A stretch of 20,215 nucleotides of DNA from a virus, in IMG/VR virus record IMGVR_UViG_3300047564_004565, positions 1 through 20,215 of that record; one strand, 5' to 3'. Position 1 is the first letter of the stretch; every line of letters begins with the position of its first letter. Position numbers and translations under genes: made by a program. This document shows, piece by piece, positions 12,322 through 20,215 of the stretch. The notes under the pieces were generated by a model. The model worked only from the letters and a program-made list of their open reading frames with translations. It was not told where the DNA came from and did not search any database.

Positions 12322-12350
12322 AATAATTCCTAAGAATATGAATTTCTAAG

Positions 12351-12356
12351 TATTTA
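12351..12356 (-). promoter_or_regulatory. Late-promoter-like TAAATA for the fibre operon
   Basis: The minus strand reads GGGCTAAATAC, 29 nt before the giant fibre ATG. A start about 6 nt downstream would leave a leader of roughly 24 nt containing the TTAGGA ribosome site. No other such motif lies between the next three fibre genes, so they are probably co-transcribed from here. Confidence 0.55.
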
Positions 12357-12380
12357 GCCCAAAATTCTGTAAGCCTAATG

Positions 12381-12386
12381 TAAATA
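12381..12386 (+). promoter_or_regulatory. TAAATA 4 nt before the zinc-finger-like gene
   Basis: The plus strand reads TGTAAATACTTGATG. The motif ends 4 nt before the ATG at 12391, leaving no room for a Shine-Dalgarno site. If it works like a T4 late promoter, the transcript starts at or just inside the start codon. It is divergent from the fibre-operon motif 24 bp away. Confidence 0.35.
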
Positions 12387-12390
12387 CTTG

Positions 12391-12678
12391 ATGTTTCTAA
12401 AAACAGAAATTGAATCTACAGAATATGTTCGAGTCAGCAAGTTAGGCAAAGAACATAGGTATAAAAGAAAAAAGACCTTAGCGGTCTTTAGATGTGATAA
12501 CTGTGATCAAATTTTTAAGAGAGAACTTAAAAAAATACACAGTAAAAGATTAAGTAACAATTATTTTCATTGTTGTTCAAACTGCGATGCAAAGAAATTT
12601 GCTCAACGAAAAGGAGTGGAGCGAAAGAAAATATGGGATATGCCAGCTAGTTTAGAGTGGCCAGTGTCTAAATTCTAA
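12391..12678 (+). CDS. Small Cys-rich, zinc-finger-like protein
   Basis: This 95-aa basic protein is one of only two plus-strand genes in the window. The N-terminal third is Lys/Arg-rich (KLGKEHRYKRKK), followed by FRCDNCDQIF (Cys 35 and 38) and HCCSNC (Cys 61, 62, 65). Two CxxC pairs spaced about 23 residues apart suggest a treble-clef or zinc-ribbon fold. Small proteins of this kind occur in T4-like phages without known function; nucleic-acid binding is a guess. The start is uncertain: ATG at 12391 or TTG at 12388, neither with a Shine-Dalgarno site. The 3' end overlaps the iscA-like gene tail to tail by 11 nt. Part of the gene doubles as a minus-strand terminator (12461-12489). Confidence 0.7.
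   Translation: MFLKTEIESTEYVRVSKLGKEHRYKRKKTLAVFRCDNCDQIFKRELKKIHSKRLSNNYFHCCSNCDAKKFAQRKGVERKKIWDMPASLEWPVSKF
12461..12489 (-). terminator. Intrinsic terminator of the sod-iscU-iscA operon, antisense in a gene
   Basis: Read on the minus strand, a 7-bp stem (AAAGACC / GGTCTTT) with a 5-nt loop is followed by TTTCTTTTAT, giving a U-rich run directly after the stem. It lies about 180 nt past the iscA-like stop, inside the coding sequence of the plus-strand zinc-finger gene. On the plus strand no T run follows the stem, so it should act in one direction only. Confidence 0.6.
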
Positions 12679-12988
12679 AACTTTCGCCGCAGCCACAGCG
12701 GTCTCGTTCGTTAGGATTAATAAAATCAAAACCTTCGTTTAAGCCTTTTTTTAGCCAATCCATAGTCAAACCGTTTAGATAAGGCATAGCTTTAGGATCT
12801 ACGAATATATGTATCCCTTCGCTAACAAAGCTAAGATCTTCCTGTATAGGATTGTCGACGTATTCTATAGTATATGCAAGTCCGCTACAGCCTGTGGTTT
12901 TTACACCGATTTTAATTCCGTGTCCTTTGCCTCTATGTTCTAGATGATGTTTTACTTTGTTAGCTGCTAACGGTGTTAGTGATATCAT
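12668..12988 (-). CDS. iscA: A-type Fe-S carrier, IscA/ErpA-like
   Basis: This 106-aa protein belongs to the HesB/IscA family, which receives [2Fe-2S] or [4Fe-4S] clusters or iron and passes them to apo-proteins. All three cluster-binding cysteines are present: Cys34 in TTGCSGLAY, and Cys98 and Cys100 in the C-terminal CGCGESF. Length and the GLNEGFDFINPN motif are typical of the family. Its ATG lies 29 nt inside the end of iscU and has no good Shine-Dalgarno, so translation is probably coupled to iscU. IscA versus ErpA cannot be settled by eye; the neighbouring iscU favours IscA. It is the last gene of the redox/Fe-S operon. No iscS, hscA/hscB or fdx is present in the window, so sulfur would have to come from the host. 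Confidence 0.92.
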   Translation of the reverse strand: MISLTPLAANKVKHHLEHRGKGHGIKIGVKTTGCSGLAYTIEYVDNPIQEDLSFVSEGIHIFVDPKAMPYLNGLTMDWLKKGLNEGFDFINPNERDRCGCGESFRI

Positions 12989-13364
12989 GTTTGGCTTTAT
13001 AATCAGCTACTGCGGCTTTGATCGCATCTTCGGCTAGAATACTACAGTGTATTTTAACTGGCGGCAAGGCTAGCTCTTCGGCGATAGCGGAGTTTTTAAT
13101 TGTTCCTGCTTCGTCGAGGGTTTTTCCTTTGAGCCATTCTGTAACGAGGCTCGAGCTTGCGATAGCCGATCCGCAGCCATACGTTTTAAATTTTGCATCT
13201 GTAATAATACCTGTATCATCATCGACCTTAATCTGTAGTTTCATAACATCTCCGCAGGCAGGAGCACCAACCATACCGGTGCCCACCTCCGGATCATTCT
13301 TATCAAAGCTACCCACGTTACGAGGGTTCTCGTAGTGGTCAATAACTCTGTCAGAATATGCCAT
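12960..13364 (-). CDS. iscU: Fe-S cluster scaffold protein IscU
   Basis: IscU assembles [2Fe-2S] clusters from iron and IscS-donated sulfur in the cytoplasm. The 134-aa protein is nearly collinear with bacterial IscU: the N-terminus MAYSDRVIDHYENPRNVGSF, GAPACGDV with Cys37 and Asp39, YGCGSA with Cys64, and LPPVKIHCSILAEDAI with the HscA-binding LPPVK and His106/Cys107. One extra residue (DDDTG) shifts the later numbering by one from E. coli. All active residues are intact. The sequence is much closer to beta/gammaproteobacterial IscU than to SufU or NifU, which suggests acquisition from such a host. AAGGAG lies 9 nt before the ATG, just after the stop of the 39-aa peptide gene. It overlaps the iscA-like gene by 29 nt. 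Confidence 0.95.
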   Translation of the reverse strand: MAYSDRVIDHYENPRNVGSFDKNDPEVGTGMVGAPACGDVMKLQIKVDDDTGIITDAKFKTYGCGSAIASSSLVTEWLKGKTLDEAGTIKNSAIAEELALPPVKIHCSILAEDAIKAAVADYKAKHDITNTVSS

Positions 13365-13373
13365 ACTATCTCC

Positions 13374-13493
13374 TTATTGTTTCTTAGCAATCATTGCCTG
13401 AATTTTTTCCTGTACGATCTTAGCCCAAAATGGCTGTGGAAAATTCCATCCAATAAATGCCCCGACTGCTACCCATAATAGTGTATCTAACAT
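13374..13493 (-). CDS. 39-aa single-pass membrane peptide
   Basis: This short ORF encodes MLDTLLWVAVGAFIGWNFPQ followed by PFWAKIVQEKIQAMIAKKQ. Residues 3-17 are hydrophobic enough for one membrane segment, and the rest is an amphipathic Lys-rich tail. The ATG at 13493 has an AAGGAG site formed by the last codons of the superoxide dismutase gene, whose stop is 1 nt away. The stop is followed at once by the iscU ribosome site, so the peptide is embedded in the sod-iscU-iscA operon. Spacing, signals and a clean frame make it a real gene. The function is unknown. Confidence 0.8.
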   Translation of the reverse strand: MLDTLLWVAVGAFIGWNFPQPFWAKIVQEKIQAMIAKKQ

Positions 13494-13494
13494 T

Positions 13495-14052
13495 TTACGC
13501 TCCTTGTAAACGGATATCAACAACTTCCCAGTTGATGATTCTCCATATATTATTTAAGTACTTTGCTTTGTCTTGTTGATAATCCAGTGCCCAAGCGTGT
13601 TCCCAAGCATCTATCAACAGAGCAATTTTCATATTCTTTTTATATTCGTGATTATGTATTGTGTGCAGTTTGCCGGAGGTATCCATATAGATCCAATTGG
13701 ATCCTTGAGCGGCCATGAACTCTTTTTCAAAAGCCTCTTTAAACTTTTCAAAATTTCCATAATTATCTTCGATTAGGGTCTTACTGATCCCCTCTGGTTT
13801 ATTAGCAGCTCTAGGTGGGGTAAGATTAGCAAAGAAAATATTATGTAACATAGCACCACCGTAGTTAAAATCCGGGTCGCCTTCACCTTTGTTGTAACGT
13901 TCAGAGTATTTGGCAGCTAATCCGTCGTAATGATATTTAACGGTATCTTCGCTCATCACAGGCTCTAACTCGTTTTTATCAAACTTGAGTTTATCTTGAC
14001 GGATTTCGCTCTTGTCTTTGTTTTCTGTTATACTTTTAATAAAATGTAGCAT
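13495..14052 (-). CDS. Iron/manganese-type superoxide dismutase
   Basis: This protein is predicted to convert superoxide to oxygen and peroxide. It matches the Fe/Mn SOD fold along its length: LEPVMSEDTVKYHYDGLAAKY at the N-terminal hairpin (split here as LEPVMSED and TVKYHYDG), GGAMLHNIFF, LIDAWEHAWALDY and NNIWRIINWEVV at the end. Counting from the ATG at 14058, metal ligands are His43, His72, Asp150 and His154. Some second-shell residues differ: His30 of E. coli MnSOD is replaced by Leu, and the Gln146 position looks like His137. There is no signal peptide, so it should act in the cytoplasm. I prefer the ATG at 14052 (MLHFIK) because a TAAATA ends 5 nt before it; the ATG at 14058 overlaps that motif. 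No Shine-Dalgarno site is seen. Confidence 0.88.
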   Translation of the reverse strand: MLHFIKSITENKDKSEIRQDKLKFDKNELEPVMSEDTVKYHYDGLAAKYSERYNKGEGDPDFNYGGAMLHNIFFANLTPPRAANKPEGISKTLIEDNYGNFEKFKEAFEKEFMAAQGSNWIYMDTSGKLHTIHNHEYKKNMKIALLIDAWEHAWALDYQQDKAKYLNNIWRIINWEVVDIRLQGA

Positions 14053-14057
14053 ATGCA

Positions 14058-14063
14058 TATTTA
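14058..14063 (-). promoter_or_regulatory. TAAATA for the sod-iscU-iscA operon
   Basis: The minus strand reads GGTAAATATGCATATG. The motif ends 5 nt before the ATG at 14052, so a T4-late-like start would fall on that start codon. It is arranged back to back with a plus-strand TAAATA 6 bp away. Confidence 0.5.
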
Positions 14064-14069
14064 CCGTGC

Positions 14070-14075
14070 TAAATA
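14070..14075 (+). promoter_or_regulatory. TAAATA for the dockerin-like gene
   Basis: The plus strand reads GTGCTAAATAAACC, 20 nt before the ATG at 14096. An AAGGAG ribosome site follows at 14082-14087. The 8-mer GCTAAATA is identical to that at the fibre operon. Confidence 0.55.
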
Positions 14076-14095
14076 AACCACAAGGAGAAAAACCT

Positions 14096-14404
14096 ATGGA
14101 AATCGTACTTCTAGCAATCGCCGCAGTGGTAATTGGTGCTTTTGTTTATTACAATCGTTCTTCAAAAGGACTCGATGTAAACAATGATGGCAAAGTTGAC
14201 GCTGCTGATGCCAAGGCTGCTGTTCAAAATGTCGTTGAGGGTGTAAAAGCCACCGCCGATGTTAACAAGGACGGAAAAGTTGATTCTGCAGATGTAGCAG
14301 TGGTAAAAGAAAAGGTCAAGACAGTTGCCAAAAAGACAACAGCCAAGGCCAAAGAAACTGTTACGAAAGCAACAACTCGCGGTCGCAAGCCAAAGGCTCA
14401 ATAA
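14096..14404 (+). CDS. Membrane-anchored dockerin/EF-hand-like protein
   Basis: This 102-aa protein has a hydrophobic N-terminal segment (residues 3-19, MEIVLLAIAAVVIGAFVYY) without a clear cleavage site, so it is probably anchored. Two calcium-binding loops of the type I dockerin kind follow: DVNNDGKVDAAD (27-38) and DVNKDGKVDSAD (55-66), each with Asp/Asn at loop positions 1, 3, 5, 9 and 12. The last 30 residues are Lys/Thr/Ala-rich like a histone tail (KKTTAKAKETVTKATTRGRK). In cellulosomes paired loops of this kind bind cohesins; no cohesin is seen here. Calcium binding is a strong inference and its role is unknown. AAGGAG lies 8 nt before the ATG. The gene converges with uvsE, overlapping its end by 44 nt. 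Confidence 0.85.
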   Translation: MEIVLLAIAAVVIGAFVYYNRSSKGLDVNNDGKVDAADAKAAVQNVVEGVKATADVNKDGKVDSADVAVVKEKVKTVAKKTTAKAKETVTKATTRGRKPKAQ

Positions 14405-15419
14405 TCTTTTGAGCCTCTTCGTAAAGTGCAAATGAAGCTAGATTCTTAGCTTTGCTTTCGCACATTATATCGAAGTCATCCCTAAAACTCAGTGCCCATT
14501 GATTCGCTGCTGTATTCCAGTAGAAGTTTGAATGCGCTCTGAGTTTTGCTTTTTTGTGTCCGGATTCTAGTAGCGTCCGAAGATCGGGACGGATGTGTCT
14601 GGGATGGTCATTAAGATGCTCTTCCCGTGAAACACTATAATGTATGACAGGACGCACACCACGCCAGCTATCAATAATCCTTTTAACACGGTCGTCATTC
14701 GCATTTATATATTCTCCTGTGTGTATCCAATGATGGTGTATGTCTAATACTAGAGCACAATGATCGACTAGTTCTAGGCTAGAATCAATACCCCAACTAA
14801 TTTCGTCGTTCTCAATAGTTAGTGTATTGCGAGCCTCTGGAGTCATGCGAGCCAACGCAGCAACGATTCCCATTGGGCCTTGTCTACCTGCGATATGAAC
14901 GTTGATTTTAAAGTCTTGAAACGTTCGGCCAAATCCCATCCAGCGAGCCATGTCCACATGATATTCAAACTCCTCTATACTTCTATTTACAATATCTGGA
15001 TTATCGCTAGCAAGGACAGTAAACTGCCCAGGATGAAAACTAAGGCGAACACCCCTCTTGCGAGCCAAATCCCCCACGGCTCGAAATGCTGTTTCACAAT
15101 AGGCTCGGACATCGGAAGTCCGCCAAAACCAACTCCAAGTTGGCTCAGTGTACACAGGAAGGATATCGCTGCTGAGTCGTACCATTCTAAGATTTTCATC
15201 TAGTTCTCCTACTCGTTCCACAAGCAAGCGGCACGATTCAATGTTCTGTTCCATAAGGGACCAGAGTTTTTCAGTAGCCACGTCCTTAGTCTGTCTATTT
15301 AACCAGGCTACGGTGGTACTACCGGTATTGTATTTTTTACAATCATCTTTGGGTTTAATGCCGTCTACTTGATCGGAACGGTCGATCCATTTGCAGGCAA
15401 AGCCAATACGCTTGATCAT
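14361..15419 (-). CDS. uvsE: UV damage endonuclease UvsE/UVDE
   Basis: UVDE enzymes nick DNA just 5' of UV photoproducts and some other lesions and so start excision repair. The 352-aa protein has the family's TIM-barrel motifs in order: RIGFACKW at the start, NIESCRLLVE (59-68), RLSSDILP (81-88), LSFHPGQF (126-133, metal His129), TIENDE (201-206, Glu203), LVLDIHHHWIH (223-233, Asp226 and nearby His), and PVIHYS (257-262). Length is within the usual range. The start ATG at 15419 directly follows the stop of the 55-aa ORF (TAAATGA, no Shine-Dalgarno), suggesting translational coupling. The gene is probably driven by the sigma70-like promoter at 15594-15622 and thus expressed early. The 3' end overlaps the convergent dockerin-like gene. 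Confidence 0.93.
   Translation of the reverse strand: MIKRIGFACKWIDRSDQVDGIKPKDDCKKYNTGSTTVAWLNRQTKDVATEKLWSLMEQNIESCRLLVERVGELDENLRMVRLSSDILPVYTEPTWSWFWRTSDVRAYCETAFRAVGDLARKRGVRLSFHPGQFTVLASDNPDIVNRSIEEFEYHVDMARWMGFGRTFQDFKINVHIAGRQGPMGIVAALARMTPEARNTLTIENDEISWGIDSSLELVDHCALVLDIHHHWIHTGEYINANDDRVKRIIDSWRGVRPVIHYSVSREEHLNDHPRHIRPDLRTLLESGHKKAKLRAHSNFYWNTAANQWALSFRDDFDIMCESKAKNLASFALYEEAQKIIEPLACDRELLLS
14394..14416. repeat. 8-bp stem-loop at the dockerin-like/uvsE junction
   Basis: AGGCTCAA (14394-14401) pairs with TTGAGCCT (14409-14416) across a 7-nt loop that contains the dockerin-like gene's TAA stop. Neither strand has a strong U-run after the stem. It may mark or protect a 3' end rather than act as a classical intrinsic terminator. 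Confidence 0.45.
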
Positions 15420-15587
15420 TTAATGTACCGCTTTCTTAGCATCTACTTCGCACTCAACTACCCAATTATTAAATTCGGTAAATTTGTTTACTTCAACTCC
15501 TAGTCCAACGGCTTCATTTACAAAGTGCTGCAGAAGTGCATTATAAAGCTCGTCGGGCATTGTGTTTTTATCAAATTTAATTTTCAT
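15420..15587 (-). CDS. 55-aa acidic ORF upstream of uvsE
   Basis: The ORF encodes a 55-residue protein beginning MKIKFDKNTMPDELYNALLQ and ending CEVDAKKAVH. It is soluble, mildly acidic, with no recognisable motif; the composition suggests a small alpha/beta fold. The stop and uvsE start share the string TAAATGA, so the two are coupled. There is no Shine-Dalgarno site. Instead a near-consensus sigma70 promoter has its -10 hexamer 6 nt before the ATG, which predicts a transcript starting at the start codon. Function unknown. Confidence 0.7.
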   Translation of the reverse strand: MKIKFDKNTMPDELYNALLQHFVNEAVGLGVEVNKFTEFNNWVVECEVDAKKAVH

Positions 15588-15593
15588 AATACA

Positions 15594-15622
15594 AGTATAA
15601 CACCATCAGCACCAGTTGTCAA
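15594..15622 (-). promoter_or_regulatory. Near-consensus sigma70 promoter (early) for the 55-aa ORF and uvsE
   Basis: On the minus strand TTGACA (15622-15617, perfect -35) is followed after exactly 17 nt by TATACT (15599-15594, 5 of 6 for -10). A TG dinucleotide sits at the extended -10 position. The -35 and most of the spacer overlap the last codons of the glycosyltransferase gene. The predicted +1 falls on the A of the ATG at 15587. Confidence 0.8.
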
Positions 15623-16394
15623 CAACAAACTTGTCTCTAACGTCTTGAGGTTTTGGATCACCGTGGAATACTGCCACGCAGCATTCTGGACTTATATTGA
15701 GATTATCCTGAGTGTCTTTAAAAAATCGTTTACCCTTTTCATAGATCAGCTCTTCTCTTTTTCGTATTTCCCACTTGTAACTTAATATCCAATCGGTGGG
15801 CCAATATTTGATTTTATTGAAACTTACTTTATAGATCCAATCTTGGTCACCCTGCAATCTTTGAGCCTCAGATGGGTTAACCATAAATTTTTCATATATT
15901 TCTGTTTGGGAACCGTGTCTCCAAGACATCACAGAACTGTTAACAATTTTCCAATTGTTATAAAATTTTCTATTAAAATCTTGTATACCGTAAAAACCGT
16001 TACCTAAATTTGTCACTAACTTATTGATGTTAGCGTGTATTACAACATCCAAATCAAAATATAAGATTCTACCGTGTACCGGTAATCGAGAATCGAACAT
16101 ATGAACTTTGTGCCACCAAAGTTTTTTATAAGGACCTGTTGGTTGATAGATGTTTCTAACTCCGTCAATTGTGTGACGATCGTCAGTTAGACAAACAAAT
16201 TCATAGGGAACAGTAAGATGTCTTGCGACCATGTTGCGGAGACGTTCAACATATTCTCTACCGTATCGTGTACCAAATCTCACACAGAGAACGGTGACTT
16301 TATCATCTTCAGCTGAAATTACAGATTGTTGATTAAATTTTTCTGCACGTTTTTCCGCTTTAAGACGTCTACGTTCTTCTTTTGACAATTCCAT
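15606..16394 (-). CDS. Glycosyltransferase (GT-A/GT8-like)
   Basis: This 262-aa protein is a likely sugar-nucleotide-dependent transferase. After a charged N-terminal helix (residues 2-20) the fold begins with [14 protein letters not shown] DxD metal/nucleotide motif lies in [14 protein letters not shown] (Asp114 and Asp116). Further conserved-looking acceptor-side motifs are LQGDQDWIY (180-188) and [12 protein letters not shown] (241-252), the latter like the C-terminal HxxG/HGxxKP of GT8-type enzymes. There is no signal or membrane segment. The ATG lies 26 nt inside the end of kdsA with GGTGG upstream, so it is expressed with kdsA. A role in modifying LPS core sugars is suggested by that neighbour; the exact donor and acceptor are unknown. 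The last codons contain the next promoter. Confidence 0.75.
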
Positions 16395-17199
16395 CGATAG
16401 CCACCAATTCTTCTAATAGTTCTTTTAATTTATCTAGACGAACCATATTTGGACCGTCGCTTGGAGCATTGTCTGGATTTTCGTGAGTTTCGATAAAAAC
16501 TCCAGCAACACAACCTGTAGCTACAGCAGCTCTCGCCAGGTAGGGTACCATGGTCCGATCTCCACCAGATCGTTCTCCCATTCCTCCAGGTTGCTGTACA
16601 CTATGAGTGGCATCAAAGACCACTGGATACCCGGTGCTTGCCATAATAGGCAAACTGCGCATATCCACAACAAGATTGTTATATCCATGGGTGTATCCTC
16701 TTTCGCATAACATAACTCGATCATTCCCGGTAGATGCTATTTTTTCTGCGACATTTTTCATGTCGTGCGGTGCTAAGAATTGTCCCTTCTTAACATTAAC
16801 AGCCTTACCGGTACTACCTGCTGCTAGTAGCAAGTCAGTTTGTCTACATAAAAAAGCTGGTATCTGTAACACATCTGTGCCAGCACTGGCAACTAACTCT
16901 GCCTGCCAGCACTCATGAATATCAGTCAATATAGGCATACCAAAAAGATGTTTAACAGAATTTAATATTTGTAAACCCTTTTCTAATCCGACACCTCTTT
17001 TAGTGTTTATACTGGATCTGTTAGCTTTATCGAAACTGCTTTTATAGATCAAACCAATATTAAGATCATCGCAGATTTCTTTAATTGATCCTGCTGTTTG
17101 ATGAGCATGATCTTGACTTTCTATTTGACAAGGGCCAGCGATTAAAAATATTTTGTTCTTATTGCTGATCTCTACGTGGTTGATTGAAAATGTATGCAT
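16369..17199 (-). CDS. kdsA: 3-deoxy-D-manno-octulosonate-8-phosphate synthase (metal-dependent)
   Basis: KdsA condenses phosphoenolpyruvate with arabinose-5-phosphate to give KDO-8-phosphate, the precursor of the LPS inner-core sugar KDO. The 276-aa protein is full length, with [11 protein letters not shown] (18-28), [12 protein letters not shown] (52-63), LTDIHE (91-96), [16 protein letters not shown] (109-124), [10 protein letters not shown] (135-144), CERG, and [12 protein letters not shown] (195-206). Cys24, His199, Glu237 and Asp248 match the four metal ligands of class II enzymes; E. coli KdsA has Asn at the Cys position, so this is the metal-dependent class. The ATG at 17199 has no Shine-Dalgarno, but TAAATA ends 5 nt before it. 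No kdsB, kdsC or kdsD is in the window, so the phage would feed the host pathway. Confidence 0.94.
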
Positions 17200-17204
17200 A
17201 TTAT

Positions 17205-17210
17205 TATTTA
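17205..17210 (-). promoter_or_regulatory. TAAATA 5 nt before kdsA
   Basis: The minus strand reads GGTAAATAATAATATG. The TAA stop of the 63-aa membrane protein forms the first half of the motif. The spacing to ATG puts a T4-late-like +1 exactly on the kdsA start codon. Confidence 0.5.
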
Positions 17211-17399
17211 CCAGTGTCTAATGACATTGGCAATAATGAACAGGCAAGTAACTACGTGGATAACTACCCAAAAAGTTTTTAGAAACAAAGCTATTCTAGC
17301 TTCTCGAATAGTGAGAATAGGCACATCTGGCCTATCCTCGTCAGTTCTGCCCATTAAATGGCCAGTAGCCCTAGCCCAGATTTTTTCTAAACTGTTCAT
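17208..17399 (-). CDS. 63-aa single-pass membrane protein
   Basis: The N-terminal 38 residues are polar and charged ([20 protein letters not shown] at the start). Residues 42-60 ([20 protein letters not shown]) form one membrane segment, ending in RHW. The ATG overlaps the queD-like stop by 4 nt (ATGA), a translational coupling arrangement. No family is assigned. A cytoplasmic head with a C-terminal anchor is likely. The stop codon forms part of the TAAATA motif before kdsA. Confidence 0.78.
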
Positions 17400-17923
17400 C
17401 CCTCGTACACTGCCGAGTTTCCTGCGTGTTCAAATACTTCGGCGGATTTTAGTCTAACACCTTGTCCGACTGGATAACGTGCTTCAAATACACGACCATC
17501 CGGATGCGTCCAACCGCGACCTTCTTGATAAGCAGTTAAAATTTCATTCATAGTTTTGTAAACTAATTCAGCGAACATTTCACAGCCAACACCGTCTACA
17601 ATACGTAGATCGATGATGCCCATGTTTTTAAATCCGCCTTGGATTTTGTTTAGTTCTACAAATGTGCCGCGTTCCGGATCGTCTTTGCCGATGACCATAG
17701 TATGATCAAACTGCCATTCGCTCCATTCTTTAAAAGCTTTAAGTCCGCCAAAGTCCATGACCCAATTCCGATCATCTAAGGTTTCAGATTCAAAGATTAG
17801 TTTGATGCCAATGGAATAACCATGTAGCAGTGAGCAATGGCTGTGTGTTGAACGCCATTGTCTAAAACAGCATGACAGGCCTCTGTCGTTACCGTAAGTT
17901 TTTGTTGAAAGATATTTCGCCAT
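17396..17923 (-). CDS. queD: QueD-like 6-carboxytetrahydropterin synthase family protein
   Basis: QueD converts dihydroneopterin triphosphate to 6-carboxytetrahydropterin on the way to queuosine and other 7-deazaguanines, which some phages put in tRNA or DNA. The 175-aa protein shows the family layout: STHSHCSLLHGYSIG (25-39; zinc His27 and His34, catalytic Cys30), WVMDFGGLKAF (54-64), FDHTMVI (72-78) and EVFEHAGNSAVYE (162-174, Glu165). The usual third zinc ligand, the second His of HGH, is Tyr36 here. The start is ATG at 17923 because AGGAGG lies 6 nt upstream; a 15-residue upstream extension lacks such a site. Activity is likely but the ligand change leaves doubt. No queC, queE or folE is visible. 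Confidence 0.85.
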   Translation of the reverse strand: MAKYLSTKTYGNDRGLSCCFRQWRSTHSHCSLLHGYSIGIKLIFESETLDDRNWVMDFGGLKAFKEWSEWQFDHTMVIGKDDPERGTFVELNKIQGGFKNMGIIDLRIVDGVGCEMFAELVYKTMNEILTAYQEGRGWTHPDGRVFEARYPVGQGVRLKSAEVFEHAGNSAVYEG

Positions 17924-17974
17924 CTCTTGCCTCCTATAAAATGCATAAGCGAGTAAGTTTGATGACACGCAGAG

Positions 17975-17980
17975 TATTTA
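17975..17980 (-). promoter_or_regulatory. TAAATA for the queD-like gene
   Basis: The minus strand reads CTTTAAATACTC, 51 nt before the ATG, in the 95-nt gap after the GT42/MptE-like gene. A second copy, GCTAAATA, lies just upstream within the end of that gene (18032-18027). Either could drive queD and the membrane protein. Confidence 0.4.
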
Positions 17981-18018
17981 AAGAGGGGTGAGCGTCATAG
18001 AAGTCCTCTATATGTATA

Positions 18019-18666
18019 TTACACGATATTTAGCTGAAGTGCAAGACCTTGATCGATATTCTTGAAATTCTCTATCTCCATAAAAGAAACATTGTCTAAA
18101 ATCCACTCTTTAGGCATTTTCCAATCTTTATAATTGACAATGATATATTCTTTATGGGTATGATGTTTGAACGTTTCGGATATTTGATAGATCCAAAAAC
18201 TAGGATCTACTGGTAAAGAATCGGTACTGTTATAATTTTTTGTACCTTTATAGATATTATTAAATTTGTTATTAGTTGAATAAAGATCAAAACCTATGAG
18301 ATAGATTTGATCATGATCTAATAAACTGGCTACTAATATTGCATACGGACCGCTGCCCCAATGTTCAGGGTTATCTCTTTTGATATTGCCATTTGTAGGC
18401 ACTGCAGGAAGTTGACATATATTTTTATTTTTTTGTATCTTTTTGAAAGATTTATAAAATCTTTCTCTTACATATATTTTTGTTGATAGATTGTTTTTAT
18501 TTTCTAATGACTCAAAGACCATTCGATGATCGCAACAAATTAGATGATCGACAGTAATATCTCTGTGTATAGCGTTGCAACCTACTATCGGATATATCTT
18601 CTTGAGATTGTCGATATCAACGGCTGACCTGCTTTCGCCGTTGCCTAAAACTATTACCGAGTTCAC
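18019..18666 (-). CDS. GT42/MptE-like Rossmann protein, probable sugar transferase
   Basis: This 215-aa protein starts with VIVLGNGESR (4-13), a nucleotide-binding loop typical of GT42-type sialyltransferases and MptE-like proteins (GNGPS). A CDHRM stretch follows at 45-49. The segment WGSGPYAILVASLLDHDQIY and then LIGFDLYST (103-131) matches the SG.yA...A..LG...IyL.G.DfY pattern of the Campylobacter GT42 family. The last part is polar, Lys/Asn-rich and more AT-rich than its neighbours, a possible sign of separate origin. Substrate unknown; a surface-glycan role fits the nearby kdsA and glycosyltransferase. The start is GTG at 18666, overlapping the upstream stop by 4 nt (GTGA). The gene is therefore coupled to the structural gene before it. 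Confidence 0.6.
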   Translation of the reverse strand: MNSVIVLGNGESRSAVDIDNLKKIYPIVGCNAIHRDITVDHLICCDHRMVFESLENKNNLSTKIYVRERFYKSFKKIQKNKNICQLPAVPTNGNIKRDNPEHWGSGPYAILVASLLDHDQIYLIGFDLYSTNNKFNNIYKGTKNYNSTDSLPVDPSFWIYQISETFKHHTHKEYIIVNYKDWKMPKEWILDNVSFMEIENFKNIDQGLALQLNIV

Positions 18667-19820
18667 AGTGTAGGTTTAATATCACCAAATGGTAACCATA
18701 TCCCGGGTGCGCCTGCAGAAATACAGACCCAGCCAATATAAGATCCGGGTCTTGGTTCAGTGTTCCAGACCACGTCCCCTTTATTGTAATTGCCGCTGCT
18801 AGGAAATCTTTCTCCGTATTGATGTAATCTGTCGTCGAACTTTATAGATCCCTGAACGTGTAATGCAGCACGATCGTCGGGATTTTTAGCACCGATAGAT
18901 AATTTGCCATGAACAAAAACTTTACTTGGAAATTGATTTTGATTACCAAGAATTATATCGCCGTTTGGTTGTACGGTAATTCTAGCTGTGTTATCAGTAA
19001 CGATGTCGAAAGGTAAACTTGCGTAAGTTCCTACGATACCTCTGGTCTGATCTTTAGTGCCTAACAATACTTCAACACCATCTTCCATTACAGATAAAGC
19101 GGCATTGGGTTCTTCGGTTCCTAGACCTAACCTATTACTATTAGAACTATAAACAATATACTGATCGATTATTACATCACCGTCTACTATTAAACCTTTT
19201 AATCTTCCTAGCTCTCGGAGAGAACTTTTAGTCACTGAGTTACCTAATTCATTAGGAGCCAATACAGGAACTCCATTAATAGCGTAATGTTTGTCTTTGT
19301 GGATATCGATTATTTCTGTACTGAAGAATCTATCAGGATATGGTTTGTAAACAAATTGTTTAGCATAGCCTTCACCTATCCACCAAAGTCCTTTGTTTTC
19401 TAAAGACTCAGTTTCAGTTTTTTTAAACTCTAAAGAAGCAGACCTTTCTATTCTAGTATCTGATAAAATTTCAGTTACTTCAATAGTTGCTGCTTTGAGA
19501 TGCCCACTGATAGTTAGATTTTTGGCTGTTATATTCTCGGAAACATTGAGGTTTCCTTGTAATGTGCCTACACTTAAAACGTCGATTTTAATACCGTCGT
19601 TGCCTACTACTAGCTTAGTAGAAGTAGCATCATCTTTAATACCTAGGCTAGAAAATGCAGTTATTGTTCCGCCCGTTATATGATCTCCGCTTAGACCTCT
19701 TTTCGGTATCGATTTAACGATATCGTTAAAGTCAAAAACAGGTTTGGTGTTATTGGCCAGGTCTTTTAGAGCTGTGCCAAGGTATGCGATTGCTTTATCT
19801 AGGTTGTTTTGGTCTGTCAT
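18663..19820 (-). CDS. Tail-fibre-like structural protein
   Basis: This 385-aa protein lacks the docking motif of the fibre block. It has a helical start (residues 1-25), then beta-rich segments with hexad-like repeats (LSVGTLQGNLNVSENITAKN, then LTISGHLKAATI). RLGLGTEEPNAALSV (about 232-246) is the G.GT..P.a.L.V motif frequent in phage fibres and tailspike heads, and a second form is SIGAKNPDDRAALHVQGS. The C-terminus YNKGDVVWNTEPRPGSYIGW plus VCISAGAPGIWLPFGDI matches a common tip pattern (GD.VWN..P..G...GW.C...G.PG.W). A structural, perhaps receptor-binding role is inferred. The ATG lacks a Shine-Dalgarno; it sits in one arm of an inverted repeat with TAAATA in the loop. Confidence 0.8.
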   Translation of the reverse strand: MTDQNNLDKAIAYLGTALKDLANNTKPVFDFNDIVKSIPKRGLSGDHITGGTITAFSSLGIKDDATSTKLVVGNDGIKIDVLSVGTLQGNLNVSENITAKNLTISGHLKAATIEVTEILSDTRIERSASLEFKKTETESLENKGLWWIGEGYAKQFVYKPYPDRFFSTEIIDIHKDKHYAINGVPVLAPNELGNSVTKSSLRELGRLKGLIVDGDVIIDQYIVYSSNSNRLGLGTEEPNAALSVMEDGVEVLLGTKDQTRGIVGTYASLPFDIVTDNTARITVQPNGDIILGNQNQFPSKVFVHGKLSIGAKNPDDRAALHVQGSIKFDDRLHQYGERFPSSGNYNKGDVVWNTEPRPGSYIGWVCISAGAPGIWLPFGDIKPTL

Positions 19821-19850
19821 AGTCTAGTATTTATTTAGAACTATGACAGA
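19813..19850. repeat. 11-bp inverted repeat around TAAATA and a start codon
   Basis: Arms 19813-19823 (TCTGTCATAGT on plus) and 19840-19850 (ACTATGACAGA) are perfect reverse complements around a 16-nt loop. The minus-strand loop holds two overlapping TAAATA copies, and one arm contains the ATG of the 385-aa gene. Inner CTA/TAG could extend the stem past a bulge. Confidence 0.85.
19828..19837 (-). promoter_or_regulatory. Overlapping double TAAATA before the 385-aa gene
   Basis: The minus strand reads TTCTAAATAAATAC, giving TAAATA at 19837-19832 and again at 19833-19828. They end 11 and 7 nt before the ATG at 19820. A T4-late-like start would leave a leader of at most a few nucleotides, too short for a ribosome site. 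Confidence 0.45.
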
Positions 19851-19862
19851 TCAAGAATTGAA

Positions 19863-20215
19863 TTACAAAGTTTTAAGTAGAATTGTATCTTCGTTGATGC
19901 GACCGTTGAGCTTGATATCTACTGCTTTAATGTCCTCTAAGAACTTACGCAGGGCTACTTTACCTGCCGCTTTGAACTCTTTGAGTTGCTCTTCGGGCTT
20001 GCGCAAGGTCTTCTGCACAGATCGATTTTCGTCAAAACCCGTGATAGAAGTACCCTTAACTCCGAGCTCACCAAATTCGCTGGTAACATATTTGCCTAAC
20101 TTACGGGTCTTGATATTGAAGATCCATAGTTCTTTGGCACCCACGATATCTGCAGGGCTAATAGAAACCAGTTTGAGCTTATCATCTTGCTTCAAATATT
20201 TGAGCTTTTCGACGA
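19863..20215 (-). CDS. C-terminal part of an unrecognised protein (runs off window)
   Basis: The frame is open from the window edge to the TAA at 19863, giving at least 117 codons. A TTG at 20195 could be called a start, but the frame continues upstream (VEKLKYLKQDDKLKL) with no ribosome site, so the gene most likely begins outside. The visible part is Lys/Glu-rich: ELWIFNIKTRKLGKYVTSEF, then GTSITGFDENRSVQKTLRKP, EEQLKEFKAAGKVALRKFLE and a final LNGRINEDTILLKTL. It looks like a mixed alpha/beta C-terminal domain. I do not recognise the family. It is followed after 42 nt by the 385-aa structural gene on the same strand, so a virion role is possible but unsupported. Confidence 0.7.
   Translation of the reverse strand, partial: VEKLKYLKQDDKLKLVSISPADIVGAKELWIFNIKTRKLGKYVTSEFGELGVKGTSITGFDENRSVQKTLRKPEEQLKEFKAAGKVALRKFLEDIKAVDIKLNGRINEDTILLKTL

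Follow-up and report, generated by a model that had tools for sequence, protein, structure and literature searches.

Late-type and sigma70-type promoters abutting start codons predict leaderless genes in T4-type phages

Leaderless bacterial genes of the 'TA-led' class carry a -10-like TANNNT about 12 nucleotides (nt) before the start codon (Zheng et al., 2011; PMC3160421). The late promoters of phage T4 (gp55/gp33/gp45) have a TAAATA core about one helical turn before the transcription start, +1 (PMC2988020). The classical leaderless messenger RNA (mRNA) of a phage is that of lambda cI (PMC3160421, PMC9031893), and a paper on phage AR9 remarks that phage transcripts are often leaderless, AR9's own leaders being 26-491 nt long (PMC5312081); leaderless phage genes as such are therefore not new. 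Here we analyze a 20,215-base virus record (IMG/VR record IMGVR_UViG_3300047564_004565, 'the window') in which five genes have TAAATA or a sigma70-type -10 hexamer 4-7 nt before the ATG, a distance that we call the gap. The layout is kept in relatives of the window, recurs in Pelagibacter phage HTVC008M, and suggests that a minority of genes in these phages are expressed from leaderless mRNAs.

A first-pass annotation of the window had placed five promoter hexamers directly before ATGs, and all five are present at the spacing it gave. They are listed here with their associated elements and with two TAAATA sites that serve as leadered contrasts (aa, amino acids; ORF, open reading frame; SD, Shine-Dalgarno site).

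12381-12386, plus strand: TAAATA (late-type), N4 before ATG 12391 of the zinc-finger gene
14063-14058, minus strand: TAAATA, N5 before ATG 14052 of sod
17210-17205, minus strand: TAAATA, N5 before ATG 17199 of kdsA
19833-19828, minus strand: TAAATA, N7 before ATG 19820 of the 385-aa gene
19832-19837, minus strand: second, overlapping TAAATA before the 385-aa gene, gap 11
15599-15594, minus strand: TATACT, N6 before ATG 15587 of the 55-aa ORF
15622-15617, minus strand: perfect TTGACA, 17 bp ahead of TATACT (whole promoter 15594..15622)
12351..12356, minus strand: contrast TAAATA, leadered, gap 29 before the 2527-aa gene, SD AGGA
14070..14075, plus strand: contrast TAAATA, leadered, gap 20 before ATG 14096, SD AAGGAG

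TAAATA stands at gap 4-7 before 4 of 17 window genes tested, against a mean of 0.11 in dinucleotide-shuffled sequence. None of 5000 shuffles reached 4, and chance is ruled out as the source of the spacing in the window. The 17 starts were chosen by hand (sod at its second ATG, the PTPS gene at ATG 17923), and two genes were left out, one starting with GTG at 1464 and a truncated one near 20195. Seven window genes have an SD. The motif lies within 40 nt of two of them, at gaps 20 and 29, and is absent from that range in the other five, which bears out the earlier claim that such genes have the motif at least 18 nt away or lack it. The absence of an SD at the abutting sites is partly automatic, because a hexamer at gap 4-7 fills the SD position.

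The sod frame offers two candidate ATGs. The first, at 14058, overlaps the hexamer; since homologues align to the one at 14052, the N5 spacing is correct. The site before the 55-aa ORF is a full sigma70-type promoter, given its perfect TTGACA at 17-bp spacing. This TTGACA sits within the last codons of the upstream 262-aa gene, and its conservation alone is therefore no evidence. At the 385-aa gene, the gap of 7 would give a predicted leader of about 2 nt. The least convincing of the five is kdsA: the first-pass annotation listed it as leaderless, and its hexamer and N5 spacing are confirmed, but the TAA of TAAATA doubles as the stop codon of an upstream 63-aa ORF and 2 of 12 homologues lack the motif, making translational coupling a live alternative for this gene.

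Among homologues, the spacing is kept while the spacer letters change. The 22 distinct zinc-finger homologues have gap 4 (17) or gap 5 (5) with 16 different spacers, and the start reads ATG TTY in the 28 homologues displayed. For sod, 20 distinct homologues include 16 with gap 5 and two with gap 4, spread over 13 spacers, and two distant ones without the motif; one additional homologue was not scorable. Gap 5 is kept in 10 of the 12 distinct kdsA homologues (three spacers). In the 385-aa family, all four scorable members of 11 homologues (the window and the near-identical L002, L023 and L025) have gap 7. In four relatives, the promoter seen before the 55-aa ORF stands directly ahead of uvdE, its -10 hexamer (TATAAT in L004 and G002/L071, TATACT in L039 and L057) at gap 6 from that gene's own ATG. 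The leadered contrasts are conserved too. The 2527-aa gene, divergent from the zinc-finger gene, has TAAATA 27-40 nt away in every one of 21 distinct homologues (27 of 28 scored), with an AGGA-type SD in most displayed upstream stretches, and the gene at ATG 14096 has gap 20 in all three distinct homologues (5 of 7 matches scored). Homologues that did not align near residue 1, or had no ATG there, were left out of these counts.

We pooled 78 related contigs (1.27 Mb), which yielded 1201 ATG genes after removal of identical upstream regions. Removing identical 40-nt upstream regions reduced the genes from 1286 to 1245, non-ATG starts were kept out of most tallies, and eight overlapping loci (L001-L003, L021, L032, L068, L071 and L078) were dropped. 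Genes came from a simple purpose-made caller rather than Prodigal. Because it overlooked the zinc-finger gene in most contigs, the pooled counts for that family are too low, and at least one of its HTVC008M starts departs from the depositor's. 'Acinetobacter phage MD-2021a' (CAKLQF020000009) was excluded because it looked like a bacterial chromosome (isc operon, hupB, mfd).

In this set, TAAATA stands at gap 4-7 before 82 of 665 SD-less genes and 2 of 536 SD genes, a contrast that is partly mechanical, just as the lack of an SD in 82 of these 84 genes is partly by construction. At least one such gene occurs in 42 of the 78 contigs. Counted by protein family, 38 of 518 have an SD-less member with TAAATA at gap 4-7, compared with 2-11 for ten control permutations of the hexamer and 5-22 for four permutations able to overlap TAAATA. 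The distribution of gaps has two peaks: with each family counted once per gap, there are 7 at 0-3, 50 at 4-7, 10 at 8-12, 5 at 13-16, 55 at 17-24, 48 at 25-40 and 34 at 41-59. The trough at 8-16 nt corresponds to leaders too short for an SD yet too long to be leaderless. The upstream neighbour lies on the opposite strand for 39% of the 82 SD-less gap-4-7 genes, versus 5% for the remaining SD-less genes and 8% for genes with an SD, a pattern expected if the hexamers act as promoters. Gap-4-7 genes also exceed shuffled expectation in single genomes (G001, 8 of 95 with 0.65 expected; G002, 9 of 90 with 0.98; G004, 8 of 200 with 1.46; HTVC008M, 11 of 163 with 1.52), and 0 of 300 shuffles reached the count in each. 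The excess of 4-7 nt spacing that the first-pass annotation had proposed looking for in relatives is thus large at gene starts, against both shuffles and control hexamers.

Sigma70-type promoters are placed likewise, at their own distance. TTGACA-N16-18-TANNNT, matched at no fewer than 9 of 12 positions, precedes 25 of 665 SD-less genes at gap 4-8, with gap 6 in 20 of the 25; none of the 536 SD genes has it there. With at least 10 of 12 positions matched, this type has gap 6 in 12 families and gap 5 in one, and TAAATA has gap 5 in 20 families and gap 6 in three (Fisher P about 4e-6, with families only approximately independent). The sigma70 -10 element spans -12 to -7, so the sigma70 +1 is expected at gap 6. 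The T4 late octamer starts at -13 (PMC2988020), so the late-motif +1 is expected at gap 5. The preferred gaps of 5 and 6 would therefore set the predicted +1 of each class on the A of the ATG, and across the gaps seen, +1 would coincide with the start codon or lie no more than a few nt from it. The earlier proposal of two translation modes with +1 near the A draws support from the kept spacing and this one-nucleotide offset, with kdsA as the member that may instead be coupled.

TAAATA is the putative late promoter in the window's phage. Relative G004 encodes a gp55 homologue (PHROG 'sigma factor for late transcription', E 6.6e-72), and HTVC008M encodes a gp55-type late sigma. The nine gap-5/6 sites at annotated starts of HTVC008M comprise four TATAAATA, two GATAAATA and three CTAAATA. 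Late-motif gap-5/6 genes include virion genes, both in HTVC008M (baseplate, head completion, end protector) and in G004 (virion structural and tail tube PHROGs); some gap-5 genes, such as sod and peptide deformylase, are not virion genes.

We identified SD-less gap-4-7 TAAATA genes in a subset of the phages compared. Counts relative to all SD-less genes are 8/54 in G001, 9/59 in G002, 7/91 in G004 (plus 1/109 SD genes), 3/18 in G010, 2/11 in G011, 9/76 in HTVC008M (plus 2/87 SD genes), 2/59 in Melnitz and 1/67 in C48C1. There are none in T4 (0/73), KVP40 (0/166), Syn9 (0/91), S-PM2 (0/85), S-CRM01 (0/149), phiM12 (0/117), or in 200-kb samples of Atu_ph07 (0/69) and Phosso (0/71); every one of these phages has TAAATA 13-40 nt from start codons. 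In the shuffle-test set, gap-4-7 genes likewise number 0 in T4 (212 genes), Syn9 (139) and the Atu_ph07 sample (189), and the 2 of 154 in methylophage Melnitz are not significant (reached by 79 of 300 shuffles). Sigma70-type promoters at gap 4-8 of SD-less genes number 0 in T4, Syn9, S-PM2, KVP40 and phiM12, 1 in HTVC008M and Atu_ph07, 2 in Melnitz and Phosso, and 3 in C48C1 and S-CRM01; among these comparison phages only Phosso has two at gap 6.

The depositor's own start codons in HTVC008M (54 coding sequences, first 34 kb) give gap 5 in eight genes and gap 6 in one, with one gene each at gaps 0, 1, 30 and 49. The nine gap-5/6 genes, one of which has AGGA nearby, include DNA end protector, head completion, tail-tube-associated baseplate, base plate wedge, tape measure and CsgF genes. 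The end-protector and head-completion genes are divergent, with 26 nt between their start codons, which leaves little leader room on either side. Among marine relatives, gap 5 is found in 6 of 8 distinct scorable upstream regions for the end protector, 4 of 8 for head completion and 7 of 7 for the baseplate protein, partial matches being skipped.

We propose, with a probability of roughly 85%, that these phages use dual-mode expression, in which the same promoter types give either leadered mRNAs with an SD or leaderless mRNAs. A minority of genes, often behind an opposite-strand gene, would have a promoter abutting the ATG. There, transcription from a consensus sigma70 promoter, or from a late TAAATA promoter recognized by a gp55-type sigma, would start on or within about 2 nt of the A, and the resulting mRNA would be translated via the 5'-AUG (70S-type) route. 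The remaining genes would have a leader and an SD, with the promoter at least 17 nt away, so that the position of the start codon relative to the promoter would decide between the two outcomes. From the motif, its spacing and conservation, the two-peaked gaps, the one-nucleotide offset and the gp55 homologue in a relative with the same layout, we strongly infer that the mRNAs of these genes are leaderless; their leaderless translation is a likely consequence.

Several points weigh against this proposal. The window contains 0 copies of the full T4 octamer TATAAATA and keeps only its TAAATA core, so its sites are not T4 late promoters in the strict sense. A search for gp55 in the partial contigs closest to the window (G001, G002, G010 and G011) found none, but since it also missed S-PM2, little weight attaches to a miss. 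Gap 4 (15 families) requires a +1 shifted by 1 nt; with gap 7 (10 families), +1 would have to shift by up to 2 nt, or the mRNA would begin about 2 nt ahead of the ATG. The raw count of GTAAATA-N5-ATG ignoring gene starts is 15 versus 11 for the reversed pattern in 14 contigs. Whole-record counts of TAAATA-N5-ATG against its reverse vary among phages (HTVC008M 14:4, T4 10:5, S-CRM01 5:0, S-PM2 5:3, P-SSM2 6:6, Syn9 3:3, KVP40 2:2, C48C1 1:1, phiM12 0:0), as do those of TAAATA-N4-7-ATG (Atu_ph07 36:56, Phosso 8:6, 121Q 22:46, Melnitz 10:7); P-SSM2 and 121Q entered these raw counts only. The spacing signal is clear only when measured at gene starts. Finally, of 319 SD-less genes in a 400-kb Pelagibacter sample, 13 have TAAATA at gap 4-7 (control mean 7.3, maximum 11) and 4 have a sigma70-type promoter at gap 4-8 (one at gap 6). 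With no clear leaderless signal in this sample, a host preference lacks support.

Other explanations of the spacing fit parts of these data. Under termination-reinitiation, TAAATA would mostly be an upstream TAA stop followed by chance AT-rich letters, with translation of the nearby ATG coupled. The TAA that closes the 63-aa ORF before kdsA fits this, and it also counts against our proposal that an upstream frame, open over at least 40 codons, could end at 23 of the 84 gap-4-7 hexamers. The other 61 genes (29 families) have no such frame, however, few genes have another permutation beginning with TAA at this distance (TAAAAT 4, TAATAA 2), and the 39% of SD-less cases behind an opposite-strand gene argue against coupling, which we consider improbable. 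A stretch of AT-rich, unstructured sequence could instead aid SD-less initiation in an S1-type manner unrelated to promoters, as SD-less starts in AT-rich genomes are often preceded by such stretches. This reading, to which we give hardly any credence, does not account for the ten controls of the same composition (2-11 families versus 38), for the lack of the layout in T4 (GC 0.35) and cyanophages of similar AT content, or for the GC-richer, longer sigma70 promoter placed likewise at its own gap. The enrichment we found is confined to TAAATA and the sigma70 consensus, which tells against it.

A real promoter might also precede an unused first ATG, with the true start downstream behind an SD. 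Start codons here were picked by ORF rules, sod offers two candidate ATGs, and callers differ on one HTVC008M gene: our caller starts head completion at 18985, 42 nt downstream of the depositor's start, a further point against the proposal. Yet homology reaches residue 1 in the displayed zinc-finger and kdsA homologues, the zinc-finger gene keeps ATG TTY, the depositor's HTVC008M annotation has the same starts, and a downstream start would leave the kept gap unexplained. We judge it very unlikely.

Dual-mode expression thus remains our preferred explanation. A more speculative extension, which we find possible but rather doubtful, is that the window's jumbo-like clade and the HTVC008M lineage independently moved gp55-type late promoters onto the starts of virion and metabolic genes, making part of the late proteome leaderless and perhaps exploiting an altered late ribosome state. 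A shared SAR11 host as the cause of the layout was considered and not adopted, given mixed host signals and the Pelagibacter sample. KdsA is nearest to Pelagibacter-type genomes (best 65%; the best 80 of 156 loci are all titled Pelagibacter, Pelagibacteraceae or Pelagibacterales). IscU, by contrast, shares as much as 86% identity with genomes from that phylum but matches Pelagibacter genome G015 only weakly (E 1e-11).

The window encodes T4-type tail genes (PHROG baseplate wedge/tail-fibre connector) as well as IscA, IscU, an Fe/Mn superoxide dismutase (SOD), UvdE and a PTPS enzyme (Pfam and PHROG searches). The 86-kb contig G001 (locus L002) contains a close copy of the window (longest aligned piece 17,253 bases at 99.97%), and parts of the window are common to many other loci at about 65-95% DNA identity. 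Among DNA polymerases, that of G001 comes closest to those of jumbo phages Phosso (51%) and Atu_ph07 (47%). The genes behind the five abutting promoters are as follows.

12391..12678, plus strand: zinc-finger gene (the earlier annotation's label), 95 aa, no Pfam or PHROG match, predicted leaderless
13495..14052, minus strand: sod, Fe/Mn superoxide dismutase (Pfam Sod_Fe_C), predicted leaderless, start 14052, not 14058
15420-15587, minus strand: 55-aa ORF, with uvdE next downstream
16369..17199, minus strand: 276-aa gene (kdsA is the earlier annotation's label), Pfam DAHP_synth_1, predicted leaderless or coupled
18663..19820, minus strand: 385-aa gene, weak partial matches to tail-fibre and virion-structural PHROGs

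For the 276-aa gene, the DAHP_synth_1 match is the sole test of the kdsA label.

We also noted features beside these genes. Between the zinc-finger and 2527-aa genes (12322-12390), two divergent TAAATA sites, one leaderless-type and the other leadered, flank a conserved TTATAAGCC-like stretch (GTAAGCC in the window). The PTPS (QueD-like) gene probably starts at ATG 17923 with AGGAGG, not at the GTG at 17968. Upstream of it, 17950-18015 (minus strand) holds a conserved element with a short stem, which varies among relatives (AGAGG/CCTCT, TGCGG/CCGCA, AGCGG/CCGCT), and a conserved tail ending TCTGC. To us this element looks like a preQ1-type riboswitch, a suspicion that Rfam did not confirm (no match at E up to 0.5). 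Among relatives, the peptide deformylase gene of G004 (L101:5006-5518, plus strand) is a gap-5 gene and predicted leaderless, and L082:14122-15660 (minus strand) encodes a 512-aa protein in which a cytidyltransferase domain precedes a region with matches to RNA polymerase sigma-factor PHROGs. Large tRNA arrays occur in G002 (L087:7738-12877, 22 genes) and G004 (L096:376-3414, 16 genes). A search for a phage-encoded initiator tRNA found a single tRNA-Met(cat) in G004, not assigned to initiator or elongator type, and none in G001 or G002.

The layout predicts late transcript starts in aquatic phages to the nucleotide. Leadered and leaderless genes under the same promoter types would form a natural system for asking whether late infection favours leaderless translation. 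In these genomes, start codons can be misplaced by simple ORF rules, as happens at sod. Searches of an open-licence collection, judged mostly by titles and the beginnings of abstracts, turned up no account of leaderless late promoters in T4-type phages, which is weak evidence of absence. In the text available to us, the Melnitz paper searched for TATAAAT and has 'leaderless' only in its reference list (PMC9004378). Pelagimyophages are T4-type phages of SAR11, like HTVC008M, and late-promoter prediction by cyanophage methods is described as unsuccessful for them (PMC7029224). Start-codon-adjacent promoters could be a reason for that failure.

Compared with known systems, the window combines ordinary parts in an unusual arrangement, and the comparative evidence for it is strong. 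The genes described here resemble TA-led bacterial genes (PMC3160421) in their predicted lack of a leader, and TATAAT-N6-ATG of these phages fits that class; they differ in belonging to T4-type phages and in adding a late motif at its own gap of 5. With lambda cI and phage leaderless mRNAs in general they would share translation from a 5'-terminal AUG, whereas those mRNAs, as presented in the passages cited, are not tied to a T4-type late promoter or to a fixed gap across genes. With T4 late promoters (PMC2988020) they share the TAAATA core and, in relative G004, a gp55 homologue. The head-completion orthologues of T4 and KVP40, in contrast, have gaps of 26 and 18 with AAGGAG, and neither phage has an SD-less gene with TAAATA at gap 4-7.

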